From NCBI GenBank assembly GCA_013360865.1, contig JABWAS010000009.1, positions 1 through 38,667 of the forward strand: DNA of 38,667 bases, given 5' to 3'. Below are positions 1-20,586 of the stretch, in pieces. This DNA comes from Candidatus Paceibacter sp. (lineage in GTDB: Bacteria; Patescibacteriota; Minisyncoccia; UBA9983). The notes under the pieces were generated by a model. The model was not told the DNA's origin. It did not search any database and saw only the letters and a program-made list of their open reading frames with translations. Each line of letters opens with the position of its first letter. The first letter of the stretch is position 1. The position numbers were made by a program, and so were the translations under genes.

Positions 1-536
1 GCCGGAGGCATCCCTTCCAAATTGGCGCTGGGGGCGACCAGCGGACCGGTTTGAGAAATTAAATCTCGCAAATATTCATCATTCGGCAGACGAAAAGCCA
101 AAGAGTTTGAACCGCGGTGAAGATAATAAAATTTTTCATCGGGGCAGGGGAATATGATACTCACTTTCCCCGGCCAAAGCTTATTCAGCTTCTCCTGCGT
201 GGAATCAGTGTCATTTGCTCGGCTCGTCCCGACGAACGTCGGGACTGAAAATTTGCTCTTCTCGCGCCGTCGCGCTTCGAAAGGCGTCGCAAACGACACT
301 GATTTCACGCTTAATAAATTCAAATCATCAACCGCGCTTATCAAAATTATCATCGGCTTGGACGGCGTTCTTTTGCGGACGACGTAAATCCGTTCTACTG
401 CTTTTTCGTCCAAAGCCCGACCGACAAGTCCGTAAATAGTGTCGGTCGGCATCACGCCGATACCGCCTCCGCGTAAAATTTCTATGATTTTACTTTTTTG
501 AGATTTTGGGTCCTTTGGCCGTATCTTCAATGTCAT
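1..536 (-). CDS. tsaC: Threonylcarbamoyl-AMP synthase (TsaC/Sua5/YrdC), C-terminus cut by window edge
   Basis: Makes threonylcarbamoyl-AMP from threonine, bicarbonate and ATP for the t6A37 modification of ANN-decoding tRNAs. Reading leftward from 536 the frame stays open to base 1 (178 codons seen). YrdC signatures visible are GVMPTDTIYGLVG, then VVRKRTPSKPMIILIS, LWPGKVSIIFP, RLPNDEYLRDL and GPLVAPSANLEG. The ATG at 534-536 lies inside cysS, so the two genes overlap by 47 nt in different frames. It is preceded by AAAAGG five bases or so upstream, and it gives the short basic lead common in the family before the core. A roughly 99-bp palindromic segment (204-302) adds about 33 residues between the DLNLLSV and QEKLNKLWPG blocks, where relatives have a short loop. 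The gene is cut by the window, so its C-terminus and any Sua5 extension are unknown. Confidence 0.9.
   Translation of the reverse strand, partial: MTLKIRPKDPKSQKSKIIEILRGGGIGVMPTDTIYGLVGRALDEKAVERIYVVRKRTPSKPMIILISAVDDLNLLSVKSVSFATPFEARRREKSKFSVPTFVGTSRANDTDSTQEKLNKLWPGKVSIIFPCPDEKFYYLHRGSNSLAFRLPNDEYLRDLISQTGPLVAPSANLEGMPP
204..302. repeat. 99-bp compound palindromic insert inside tsaC
   Basis: The outer arms ATCAGTGTCATTTGC (204-218) and GCAAACGACACTGAT (288-302) pair over 15 bp with one mismatch. Inside is a perfect 9-bp hairpin GTCCCGACG-AA-CGTCGGGAC (226-245). ATTTGCTC also occurs twice in direct orientation (213-220 and 251-258). The length is 99 bp, or 33 codons, so the reading frame is kept. 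The encoded stretch is arginine/serine-rich and does not match YrdC conservation. Confidence 0.7.
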
Positions 537-7334: not shown

Positions 7335-9212
7335 ATGAAAGGCGAATCTCCACAATCTTTTTTTGAGTCCGTAAAAAAAGAGGCTCAAAAATCCATAGAA
7401 AAAACCAAAAAAAGAATCGCTAAAGAAATTTCCGGCGGGAAGTTTCGCTCTTTAAACGACTACGCCGCGGAAAAAATAAGAAACGATATTTTTGAGGCGA
7501 TAAAAGATTCCGTGAAGGTTATGCCGGAAAATATTTCTCCGGAACTTCCGCCGGCGCACATTGCCGCCGATTTGAGCTTGCCTATTTTTGAGCTCGCCAA
7601 AGCAATCGGCAAAAATCCAGCCGCGTTGGCGGCAGAAATCGCCGGTTTGATAAACAACGCGAAACAAAATTTTATAAGCAAAGCGGAGACCGCCGGACCG
7701 TTCGTCAATCTGTTTTTAAACAAGAAAAAAGTCTATTCGCTGGCCGCGGCGCAACCGGCCAAATTTAAAGAAAAATTCGGCCAAAGCGACGCCAACGCCG
7801 GCAAGGCCGTATTGCTAGACTATTCCGGCCCCAACATCGCCAAGCCGATAGGGGTGGGGCATTTGCGTTCCACTGTCATCGGCCAGGCGCTGGCTAATAT
7901 TTACAAAGCGACAGGCTGTTCAGTGATAAAGGACAACCATTTAGGCGATTGGGGCACGCAGTTCGGCAAACTTGTTTACGCGTACAAAAAATGGGGCGAC
8001 AAAAAGAAAATAGCCCAAGACCCGATCCGCGAGCTCAACAATCTTTACGTAAAGTTCCATGAAGAGGCGGAAAAAAATCCAAAATTGGAAGACGAAGCCC
8101 GCGCTATATTCAAAAAAATGGAAGAGGGCGACGAAAAGCTGCTGCGGCTCTGGAAAAAATTCAGAAAAATAAGCCTTGCCGAATTTAAAAAAGTTTACAA
8201 GAAGCTCGGCGTAAGCTTTGACACTTACATCGGCGAAAGTTATTTCGCCAAAGAAACGGATAAAATAATTGAAGAATGTCTGGACAAAAAACTGGCCAAA
8301 ATTGATTCTGAAACCAAGGCGGTCGCGGTTGAAGGATTGGATGGCCTGCCATCGTTTTTGCTGCGCAAAAAAGACGATTCCGGCTTGTATATTACCAGGG
8401 ATTTGGCCACTTTGATTTTTAGGATGGAAGTTTTTGAGCCGGATGAAATTTTGTATGTGGTCGGCGAAGAGCAGTCCTTGCACTTCAAACAGCTTTTCGC
8501 GCTGGCAAAAACGCTCGGATACACAGACGGCGCCAAAGCCAAACACATCGGCTTTGGTTTGGTTTTGTCCGGCGGCGAAAAAATGTCCACCCGCAAAGGC
8601 ACTTTGATAGAGCTGGAGGAGTTGATGAAGCAATCGGTTGAAAAGTCAAAAGAAATTTTGCGGCAAAAAAACAGAGAATTGAGCGAAAAGGAAATTGAGG
8701 AAATTTCGGAGATTGTCGGAGTGGGAGCAGTAATCTACAACGACCTGCGGCAATCGCGCCAGAATAACATTTCTTTTGATTGGGAAAGAATGCTTGATTT
8801 TGAGGGCGGCAGCGCCGCTTATCTGCAATACACTTACGCTCGGATAAATTCAATCATTAGAAAAGTAGGATATCCAGACCATCAAGGCGACGCCTTGATG
8901 TCAAAGCGTCGCCTTGATGGTAAAATTTCCAATCCGGTCTTTGAGAAGGACAGCGAGTTCGCGCTGGCCAAAAAGATGATGTTTTTCCCGCGGGTGATTT
9001 TAAGCGCGCAAAAGCGCGACGCGCCGCATCTTATCGCCGTTTATCTGGAAGAGCTGGCGCAATTGTTCAATCATTTCTACAACGAAGTCTCCATAATCGG
9101 CACGGAGAACGCTAAACTGCGCGCGTCCAGGATAACGCTGGTAAAATCAGTGGCCGCCGTCATAAAAAACGGCCTGGCTTTGCTCAATATAAAAACCGCA
9201 GAAAGAATTTGA
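7335..9212 (+). CDS. argS: Arginyl-tRNA synthetase
   Basis: Class I synthetase that charges tRNA-Arg; 625 residues. The N-terminal additional domain is followed by the HIGH-type motif in NIAKPIGVGHLRSTVIGQ, then NHLGDWGTQFGKL, a KMSKS-type motif GEKMSTRKGT, and a C-terminal DALR anticodon-binding domain (AAYLQYTYARINSIIRK to the end LNIKTAERI). Between the DALR start and FALAKKMMFFPRV a palindromic segment (8878-8921) encodes DHQGDALMSKRRLDGK, extra compared with the short variable loop normal here. The ATG start follows an extended -10 with almost no leader. A TTGACA overlapping the TGA stop starts the promoter of the next gene. Confidence 0.97.
   Translation: MKGESPQSFFESVKKEAQKSIEKTKKRIAKEISGGKFRSLNDYAAEKIRNDIFEAIKDSVKVMPENISPELPPAHIAADLSLPIFELAKAIGKNPAALAAEIAGLINNAKQNFISKAETAGPFVNLFLNKKKVYSLAAAQPAKFKEKFGQSDANAGKAVLLDYSGPNIAKPIGVGHLRSTVIGQALANIYKATGCSVIKDNHLGDWGTQFGKLVYAYKKWGDKKKIAQDPIRELNNLYVKFHEEAEKNPKLEDEARAIFKKMEEGDEKLLRLWKKFRKISLAEFKKVYKKLGVSFDTYIGESYFAKETDKIIEECLDKKLAKIDSETKAVAVEGLDGLPSFLLRKKDDSGLYITRDLATLIFRMEVFEPDEILYVVGEEQSLHFKQLFALAKTLGYTDGAKAKHIGFGLVLSGGEKMSTRKGTLIELEELMKQSVEKSKEILRQKNRELSEKEIEEISEIVGVGAVIYNDLRQSRQNNISFDWERMLDFEGGSAAYLQYTYARINSIIRKVGYPDHQGDALMSKRRLDGKISNPVFEKDSEFALAKKMMFFPRVILSAQKRDAPHLIAVYLEELAQLFNHFYNEVSIIGTENAKLRASRITLVKSVAAVIKNGLALLNIKTAERI
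8878..8921. repeat. 44-bp palindrome inside argS
   Basis: ACCATCAAGGCGACGC (8878-8893) pairs perfectly over 16 bp with GCGTCGCCTTGATGGT (8906-8921), with a 12-nt loop that itself carries a third copy of CTTGATG. It lies in a variable loop of the DALR domain, in frame. Confidence 0.75.
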
Positions 9213-14371: not shown

Positions 14372-14989
14372 TCATTTTCTGTTTTCCAGCGCGTTTTCTA
14401 TGGTGTCGCTGTCGCTGTATTCCAATTCGGCGCCAGTGGAAAGGCCTCGTCCGAGTTTCGTTATCTTAACCCCCAACGGCTCCAGCAGTCTTTTGATGTA
14501 AAGATTGGTGCTTTCTCCTTCCGTCGTGGCGCCGGTGGCCAGAATAACTTCCCGCGGTTTTTCTTTTTTAACTTTTTCAAACAACTCCTTGAGCCGGACA
14601 TTTTCAGTTTTTCCGCCGCCGTTTAATTCCACCACGCCGCCAAGCACGAAATATCTTCCGTTAAAAACACGCGTCCGTTCTATATTTTCCAAATCAACGT
14701 CTTTTTCCACCACCATCAACAAGGAAACATCACGTCCTATACCCGCGCAAATTTTGCACTTGGAAGTTTTGCTTCCACTTGGAAGCGAAACTTCCAAGTT
14801 TCCCTGTTCAAAATAATGAAAACAAGATTCACACTGCCTCATTCCGCTTTTTATTTCGGCAATGAGTTTGGACAGGGAATCAACAAAACCCTTATTTTCT
14901 CCGGCCAGAAAATAAACAAACCGCCGGGCCTGGCGCGGCCCGACGCCCGGGAACTTTAAAAACATTTCAATTAACTTTTCCAGGTTCAT
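14372..14989 (-). CDS. recR: Recombination protein RecR with enlarged zinc-finger loop
   Basis: Part of the RecFOR/RecOR gap-repair machinery that loads RecA. It has 205 residues. N-terminal helix-hairpin-helix LKFPGVGPRQARRF, then a C4 zinc finger CESC...CKIC, then the Toprim domain with LMVVEKDVDLENIERT and ATGATTEGESTNLYI. In most RecR proteins the two CxxC pairs are about 8-10 residues apart. Here they are 21 apart because a palindromic segment of 42 bp (14758-14799) encodes the linker NLEVSLPSGSKTSK. All four cysteines are kept. It lies 18 nt downstream of dnaB in the same direction, so co-transcription is likely. Confidence 0.96.
   Translation of the reverse strand: MNLEKLIEMFLKFPGVGPRQARRFVYFLAGENKGFVDSLSKLIAEIKSGMRQCESCFHYFEQGNLEVSLPSGSKTSKCKICAGIGRDVSLLMVVEKDVDLENIERTRVFNGRYFVLGGVVELNGGGKTENVRLKELFEKVKKEKPREVILATGATTEGESTNLYIKRLLEPLGVKITKLGRGLSTGAELEYSDSDTIENALENRK
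14758..14799. repeat. 42-bp palindrome inside the recR zinc finger (ACTTGGA family)
   Basis: ACTTGGAAGTTTTGCTTCC (14758-14776) pairs with GGAAGCGAAACTTCCAAGT (14781-14799) over 19 bp with one mismatch and a 4-nt loop. The length is exactly 14 codons. Confidence 0.8.
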
Positions 14990-16936: not shown

Positions 16937-16944
16937 AGTACATT

Positions 16945-16984
16945 AAAAGAGCCGAGAATTAGAAGCCTAATTCTCGGCTCTTTT
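16945..16984. terminator. Bidirectional terminator
   Basis: AAAAGAGCCGAGAATTAG (16945-16962) pairs perfectly over 18 bp with its complement at 16967-16984, with a 4-nt loop. It is A-rich and T-rich on the outer sides, between convergent genes. Confidence 0.9.
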
Positions 16985-16992
16985 ATATCTAC

Positions 16993-17923: not shown

Positions 17924-17960
17924 TCGATGTCGGACGTCGAAGCTCGACGTCCGACATCGA
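17924..17960. repeat. 37-bp palindrome in the corA-ctpA spacer
   Basis: TCGATGTCGGACGTCGA (17924-17940) pairs perfectly over 17 bp with 17944-17960, loop AGC. It shares the TCGA-n3-C-GGAC-n-TCGA pattern with the palindrome at 20369-20415. It could be an operator for the divergent pair, but the similarity to a coding-region copy favours a dispersed element. Confidence 0.7.
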
Positions 17961-20196: not shown

Positions 20197-20586
20197 ATGT
20201 TATCAGAAATGACAAACCTTTGCAAGAGGGCGAAAGAATGGCTGAAAGTCAATGAAAGGGACTTATTCTTAGCCGCCGTTATCGTTTTGGTGGCGGCCAT
20301 AAGTTTTGGTTTGGGCCGTCTATCCAAAATCCGGGAAGAAAAAACGCCGATAATAATAGAAAGTGCCTCGTCGACACCGGACTTCGACGAGACTCGTCGA
20401 AGTCCGGTGTCGACGCAAGCGCAAGATAAAATATTCGTCGCCTCTAAAAACGGCAAAAAATATTATTACGCATGGTGCGAATCGGCGCAAAAAATAAAAG
20501 AAAGCAACCGCGTCTGGTTTGCCACCAAAGAAGAAGCCGAAAAATCGGGCTACGAACCGGCAGCCAATTGCAGGGGACTGAAATAA
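20197..20586 (+). CDS. Membrane-anchored protein with Ada/sunset-like C-terminal domain
   Basis: 129 residues from ATG 20197; upstream in-frame ATGs at 20158 and earlier are possible. A single TM (LFLAAVIVLVAAISFGLG) follows a basic lead. The C-terminal 50 residues, FVASKNGKKYYYAWCESAQ to FATKEEAEKSGYEPAANC, match the small Ada zinc-binding/sunset-like module seen attached to TM anchors in CPR proteins; two cysteines and the YYYAWC motif are present. Between anchor and domain the linker SSTPDFDETRRSPVST is encoded by a perfect 47-bp palindrome. A TATAAT at 20184-20189 ends 7 nt before the ATG at 20197, favouring that start and a leaderless mRNA. Confidence 0.7.
   Translation: MLSEMTNLCKRAKEWLKVNERDLFLAAVIVLVAAISFGLGRLSKIREEKTPIIIESASSTPDFDETRRSPVSTQAQDKIFVASKNGKKYYYAWCESAQKIKESNRVWFATKEEAEKSGYEPAANCRGLK
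20369..20415. repeat. 47-bp perfect palindrome in the linker of the TM/sunset-like gene
   Basis: 22-bp perfect arms (20369-20390 and 20394-20415), loop GAC. Left arm begins CGTCGACACCGGACTTCGAC. Shares word order with the spacer palindrome 17924-17960. Confidence 0.8.

Follow-up and report, generated by a model that had tools for sequence, protein, structure and literature searches.

The window, i.e. the whole stretch of 38,667 nucleotides analysed here (Candidatus Paceibacter sp., contig JABWAS010000009.1), begins within tsaC, a universal tRNA-modification gene. The minus strand of positions 3 to 536 encodes residues 1-178 of L-threonylcarbamoyladenylate synthase (TsaC). The ORF leaves the window at its start and its remainder lies on contig C24 of the same genome. 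A profile search with PF01300 over all 848 kb of the genome, which is scored 100% complete, gave matches at C9:6-482 and C24:2-226 only; since these two pieces stand alone in the genome, tsaC is its sole YrdC-family gene. The NCBIfam TIGR00057 match to the TsaC of the window is split into two stretches. The gene carries a compound palindrome, whose parts are listed with their coordinates in Table 1.

Table 1. The tsaC compound palindrome and its parts (positions are those of the window).
Feature	Position	Strand	Basis or remark
tsaC, 5' part	3-536	-	translation; TIGR00057, E 4.9e-28; PF01300
Whole compound palindrome, 114 bp	197-310	- (strand reading as tsaC mRNA)	inverted-repeat and fold analysis
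P1 outer arm, left	197-218	+	20/22 pairs with 289-310
P1 outer arm, right	289-310	+	20/22 pairs with 197-218
Net in-frame insertion, 93 bp, 31 codons (VSFATPFEARRREKSKFSVPTFVGTSRANDT)	207-299	-	codon, nucleotide and PDB alignments
Direct repeat ATTTGCTC, first unit	213-220	+	part of the subfamily core
Nested perfect palindrome GTCCCGACG-AA-CGTCGGGAC, 20 bp, in place of the P2 hairpin	226-245	.	
Direct repeat ATTTGCTC, second unit	251-258	+	
Conserved P3 block of the family	255-286	-	hairpin stems 264-267/272-275; consensus on the + strand GCTCTKCTC-GCGC-CGTC-GCGC-TKCGMAAGGC
			

In relatives this loop of TsaC reads LNLF-(10 residues)-LxxxWPG, whereas 41 residues occupy the same place in the TsaC of the window. 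Alignments to solved TsaC/Sua5 structures (PDB) gap there as well, between query residues 75 and 113. Inspection by eye of the orthologue nucleotides at the insert site did not reveal the palindrome, and in the congener G001 the TsaC loop counts 20 residues, with no large palindrome. The first-pass annotation had described an insert of 99 bp (33 codons) at the position of a loop that is short in YrdC proteins. The place was right, the orthologues having 10 residues and no insert, and the frame is kept; the length was overestimated. When the TsaC orthologues with a 10-residue loop are aligned, the insert is absent from them and its borders fall at about 207-299, which gives a net gain of 93 bp or 31 codons; the former figure is larger because one native-looking codon had been counted on each side. 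A conserved domain of equal length was looked for in the orthologues and not found. The tsaC feature is confirmed as an in-frame inserted palindrome.

Positions 190-320 fold as RNA with a minimum free energy of -59.8 kcal/mol; shuffled sequences reach -34.5 +/- 3.5 (z -7.2), and none of 200 shuffles is as stable. The outer arm by itself is unremarkable: its longest perfect run, 10 bp, is also reached by shuffles. As this longest-perfect-arm statistic is not significant alone, the case is carried by the fold and by the family described below. The 15-bp outer arms first proposed do pair (14/15 between 204-218 and 288-302) but are too short, the real ones extending over 22 nt. The inner 9-bp hairpin had been delimited exactly; its 20-mer occurs once in the window (0.02 expected by chance). 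A second small hairpin lies at 264-275, and the DNA of the element folds into a Y shape, i.e. a three-way junction of P1, P2 and P3. The direct repeat is real too, ATTTGCTC being comprised in a 29-nt repeat of 72% identity; we rejected it as a target duplication, as it recurs in the core of other family copies.

A DNA search of the same genome revealed seven copies in addition to that of tsaC, i.e. eight in all, with cores up to 98-100% alike and outer arms that differ. Two probes had been suggested for such a search. The outer-arm motif ATCAGTGTC gives chance-level matches only elsewhere in the genome, and is unusable as a family probe because the outer arms are copy-specific. GTCCCGACG-AA-CGTCGGGAC is found at one further place, within another copy of the family. 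Since the same 20-mer occurs in that copy and the hairpin at 226-245 replaces P2, the early suggestion of nested elements or of a larger family member was well founded on both counts: the palindrome is nested, and a dispersed family exists.

The family core also occurs in a congener and, here and there, in other genomes of the class. With a covariance model trained on 18 copies, the window copy being left out, matches were obtained in 78 of the 384 class genomes, in many cases with at least 12 scored candidates in a genome. Searching for the exact core in one genome per species (about 85,000 species) returned 28 stretches, all of them in Parcubacteria-type MAGs (Giovannonibacteria, Kaiserbacteria, Taylorbacteria, Yonathbacteria, Vogelbacteria, Nomurabacteria, Adlerbacteria and other Paceibacterota) or in a further candidate-phylum MAG, and none in Rickettsiales. 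The window comes from one MAG assembly only, which could raise the suspicion of an ordinary lineage-specific loop, a chance palindrome or an assembly artefact. We consider this extremely improbable: the fold is far outside the shuffled range and the same core recurs in numerous genomes assembled independently of one another, at many loci, so that the family refutes it.

The element has a common layout, in which P1 is variable, P2 variable yet strictly covarying and P3 conserved. On the tsaC mRNA strand it consists of the P1 outer arms, a P3 hairpin GCGC-GACG-GCGC within the conserved block, and P2, e.g. AATTTTC-AGCA-GAAAATT; in the window copy the 226-245 palindrome takes the place of the usual P2 hairpin AATTTTC-TGCT-GAAAATT. 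Tips of P2 or P3 are replaced or extended by other palindromes at L001, L007, L008, L034, L100, L111, L119 and L130. The covariation model covers P2, P3 and only two pairs of P1, because the register of P1 differs between subfamilies; an initial structure that took in the entire alignment, P1 included, was dropped on this account. In the 18-sequence core alignment 14 of the 20 modelled pairs are altered on both sides, with 47 cells changed on both sides and 8 on one side only. Paired cells amount to 93.9% against 80.5% in shuffles (0/500), while slid structures reach at most 57%. On four of five covariation measures none of the 500 shuffles matches the alignment. The window stretch has no Rfam match at E up to 1, nor does Rfam match the family core in L003, L021, L025, L033, L035 and L037; a mir-3202 match overlapping L024 (E 0.88, below the gathering threshold) was set aside as due to chance.

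We examined 87 copies, which were picked by match score and include a few seen twice via overlapping loci, so that their proportions are no census. ORFs of at least 150 aa enclose 48 of them, 40 in sense and 8 in antisense. The host genes (NCBIfam) are uvrA, uvrB, uvrC, leuS, ileS, miaA, murB, murD, mutY, recR, holA, gatB, tsaD, dnaE, prmC, fmt, hrcA, and those of DNA-3-methyladenine glycosylase (3mg), a cysteine desulfurase (iscS/nifS-type), an XerC-type recombinase and glycosyltransferases. In several of them the NCBIfam profile match is split in two around the insert. The in-gene copies are read in differing frames, all three sense frames being used, and antisense too. One third of the unique cores (33%) lack stops in every one of the three sense frames, the share among shuffles being 5%; this openness reaches 46% in genomes rich in coding copies against 15% in the rest. 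The tsaD gene of G269 (L084) carries the family twice in frame, with about 490 bp between the two insertions.

The sense bias, 40 against 8, could hint at a role at the RNA level. A functional structured RNA or regulatory element, present in genes by happenstance, would also account for the strong covariation, for the better fold of the coding strand and for the G-U pairs kept at conserved asymmetries. However the copies lie in the middle of unrelated genes, in three sense frames and in antisense, Rfam recognizes none of the cores compared, and the same sites are empty in relatives (see below), so that this explanation appears improbable. A very stable hairpin within core enzymes might alternatively be removed after transcription or skipped in translation, by self-splicing or bypassing. 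But the in-gene copies examined keep the frame and have no stops, of which removal would need neither, and the sense frames are open in excess of shuffles; we regard removal or bypassing as very improbable.

The insert of tsaC is probably translated, which would lengthen a loop of the enzyme by 31 residues, and it appears to be tolerated in TsaC, since the frame stays open. A copy that lands in frame in a tolerant loop would thereby persist as translated sequence. For a palindromic element (RPE) in the guanylate kinase of Rickettsia, translated persistence was shown experimentally (review PMC2229807). Taken as a whole, the best explanation is that the tsaC feature is, very probably, a member, in frame in its host gene, of a non-autonomous palindromic family dispersed in the Parcubacteria lineage (Patescibacteria).

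Orthologous sites were obtained from flank searches within genera and families, with the filled/empty alignments of gatB, murD in G114, the RecR locus L122 and hrcA in G093 left out as too poor. Empty sites without a dyad were found in iscS of G150 and G133, uvrB of G093, xerC of G000, at the L006 site in G007 and at the L007 site in G001 and G007; folds were computed for most of the empty sites, iscS of G133 and three tsaC orthologues being left out. comEC is filled in G114 and empty in G093, with a weak CAAAC-TTT-GTTTG dyad. At other sites an unrelated palindrome occupies the same position: uvrA of G133 (z -7.1) and G150 (z -6.6), uvrB of G114 (z -5.2), uvrC of G072 (z -6.4), xerC of G007 (z -4.8), and the L006 site in G001. 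The family appears to be mobile, as its copies are dispersed and sites are empty at about 75-90% DNA identity. The many insertion sites shared between species could also be old, since-diverged insertions. No target-site duplication is evident in the filled/empty comparisons, whose relatives are too distant for base-exact borders.

We found no transposase or recombinase that goes with the family as a partner. Transposases of the Y1/IS200 (RAYT) type occur commonly in carriers and non-carriers alike; PF01797 (Y1) is absent from the carriers G052 and G358 and present in many non-carriers. RAYT/IS200 was therefore rejected as a partner, having no correlation with carriage, and Y1 is not required, at least in G052 and G358. 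Some activity would move or copy the element.

The palindrome at the L006-orthologous site of G001 (L227) is an AT-rich compound palindrome of about 110 bp; at exactly this position G000 carries a copy of the family and G007 has nothing. Unrelated compound palindromes lie in uvrA of G133, G150 and G050 (L187, L186 and L185) and in uvrB of G114 (L180); their outer and inner stems are variable, with pyrimidine-rich internal loops between them (CTCCT.. on one side, TTCCCGG.. on the other), and they possibly form a second family of coding palindromes. Upstream of the L034 element, and separate from it, the XerC-type recombinase of G001 has an in-frame insertion of 21 bp with CCTGCCTGCCGGCAGGCAGG in it, which G000 and G007 lack; CCTGCCTGCCGGCAGGCAGG is a short palindromic repeat present at several places in these genomes and also nested in L007.

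Over ten copies from this genus, the two arms of one and the same copy show Watson-Crick pairing of 0.7-1.0 at most positions out to 20 nt, whereas arm identity between copies drops to about 0.2-0.35 past 12 nt. The inner 12 nt or so of P1 are partly common to the copies; L002, L003 and L004 have an identical core and unrelated outer arms. Arms that pair within copies but differ between them are not simply inherited with the core. Most likely, the outermost arms are no fixed part of the element and arise, or are perfected, at the insertion site. As to the way they form, we infer two routes: insertion into the tip of a hairpin, or copying of one arm from the other by template switching. We hold these to be nearly equal. 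What makes the copy of the window compound is the replacement of its usual P2 tip by the second, 20-bp palindrome.

By the first route the element inserts into tips of pre-existing hairpins, whose stem becomes the outer arms, and other palindromes then enter the tips of P2 and P3. The palindromes nested in such tips at the loci named above, the unrelated palindromes recurring at the same fixed sites of uvrA, uvrB, uvrC and xerC in other species, and the weak dyad at the empty comEC site of G093 are consistent with this. But no dyad is present at the empty sites of iscS (G150), uvrB (G093), xerC (G000), L006 and L007 (both in G007), these empty controls being distant species, and hairpin-tip insertion is a possible but somewhat doubtful route. 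By the second, the arms are written or repaired after insertion by template switching during replication, mismatches being removed and the palindrome growing outward into unique DNA. Template switching is generally established as a mechanism (PMC8794818, PMC7202029) and can create and maintain stems (PMC8794818). The excess of cells changed on both sides (47 versus 8), the Watson-Crick arms with almost no G-U outside the conserved part, and the empty sites without dyads all point to it; however both flanks of the tsaC element align with orthologue codons, so that neither arm is marked as the donor. We see this second route as a serious candidate, somewhat short of an even chance. A more general process is conceivable and, to us, rather unlikely: that Patescibacteria build and rewrite compound palindromes in place, with palindromes landing at or beside hairpin tips, arms template-switched outward from host DNA and unrelated palindromes swapping at fixed, tolerant sites of essential genes. 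If so, protein loops would be continually rewritten by DNA folding and not by point mutation. The copy-specific arms and the many filled/empty pairs make the choice between hairpin insertion and template switching testable.

To our knowledge, protein-coding mobile palindromes have so far been regarded as peculiar to Rickettsia and Wolbachia. The RPEs of Rickettsia and the protein-coding palindromes of Wolbachia are dispersed elements of about 100-150 bp that sit in frame within conserved genes and are read along with them (PMC2229807, PMC3767692), and in Rickettsia a given locus can hold one RPE group in one species and another group in the next (PMC3767692). Our family resembles them by its length (114 bp, with arms), its eight copies in the source genome, its in-frame position in tsaC and about 20 other named conserved genes, and the unrelated palindromes found at one site across species. 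It differs by its phylum, its three-way-junction core with a conserved P3, its copy-specific outer arms and the palindromes nested in its P2/P3 tips. The best reading is probably that it is RPE-like by size and habit; as its host range differs, we do not class it as RPE.

REP/BIME are small dispersed palindromes, some in genes (PMC3733652), and the family shares both traits, being partly intragenic. REPs are nevertheless single hairpins of 20-40 bp with a GTAG or CGTC tag at one end, whereas the family element is larger and bears no such end tag: its ends are copy-specific and CGTC appears only as the loop of P3. REPs are also associated with RAYT transposases, whereas two carriers of the family lack any Y1. 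Bacterial MITEs (NEMIS, ERIC, RUP) are small and non-autonomous with terminal inverted repeats, some having open frames fused to genes (PMC2229807). The family is likewise small and non-autonomous with open frames within genes, but has no common terminal sequence beyond about 12 nt and no partner transposon was found. In mitochondria, the sponge RHE and the coding inverted repeats of Nematomorpha are palindromes of compact genomes, some of them coding (PMC2800124, PMC6649704); those are organellar, and no core is known in common.

In the literature searched, a scope that leaves most subscription journals and preprints outside, we met no report of protein-coding palindromic elements in Patescibacteria. 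The presence of the same habit in about a fifth of the genomes sampled from this class, whose members are streamlined candidate-phylum bacteria, suggests that it recurs in reduced genomes. For annotators, loops of 25-45 residues in proteins of these genomes may be translated DNA repeats.

The window contains further palindromes. In the plus-strand ORF 7335-9212 (arginyl-tRNA synthetase) positions 8878-8921 form a 44-bp near-perfect hairpin palindrome with 21-nt arms, 95% complementary, read in frame within the DALR domain (DHQGDALMSKRRLDG); it is possibly another type of coding palindrome. In the minus-strand ORF 14372-14989 (RecR) a 42-bp hairpin palindrome with 20-nt arms, 95% complementary, lies in frame at 14758-14799, where it separates the HhH part from the Toprim part. 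Inverted repeats without a mismatch are located at 20369-20415 (23 nt), 17924-17960 (17 nt) and 16944-16985 (19 nt), their loops being 1-4 nt long.
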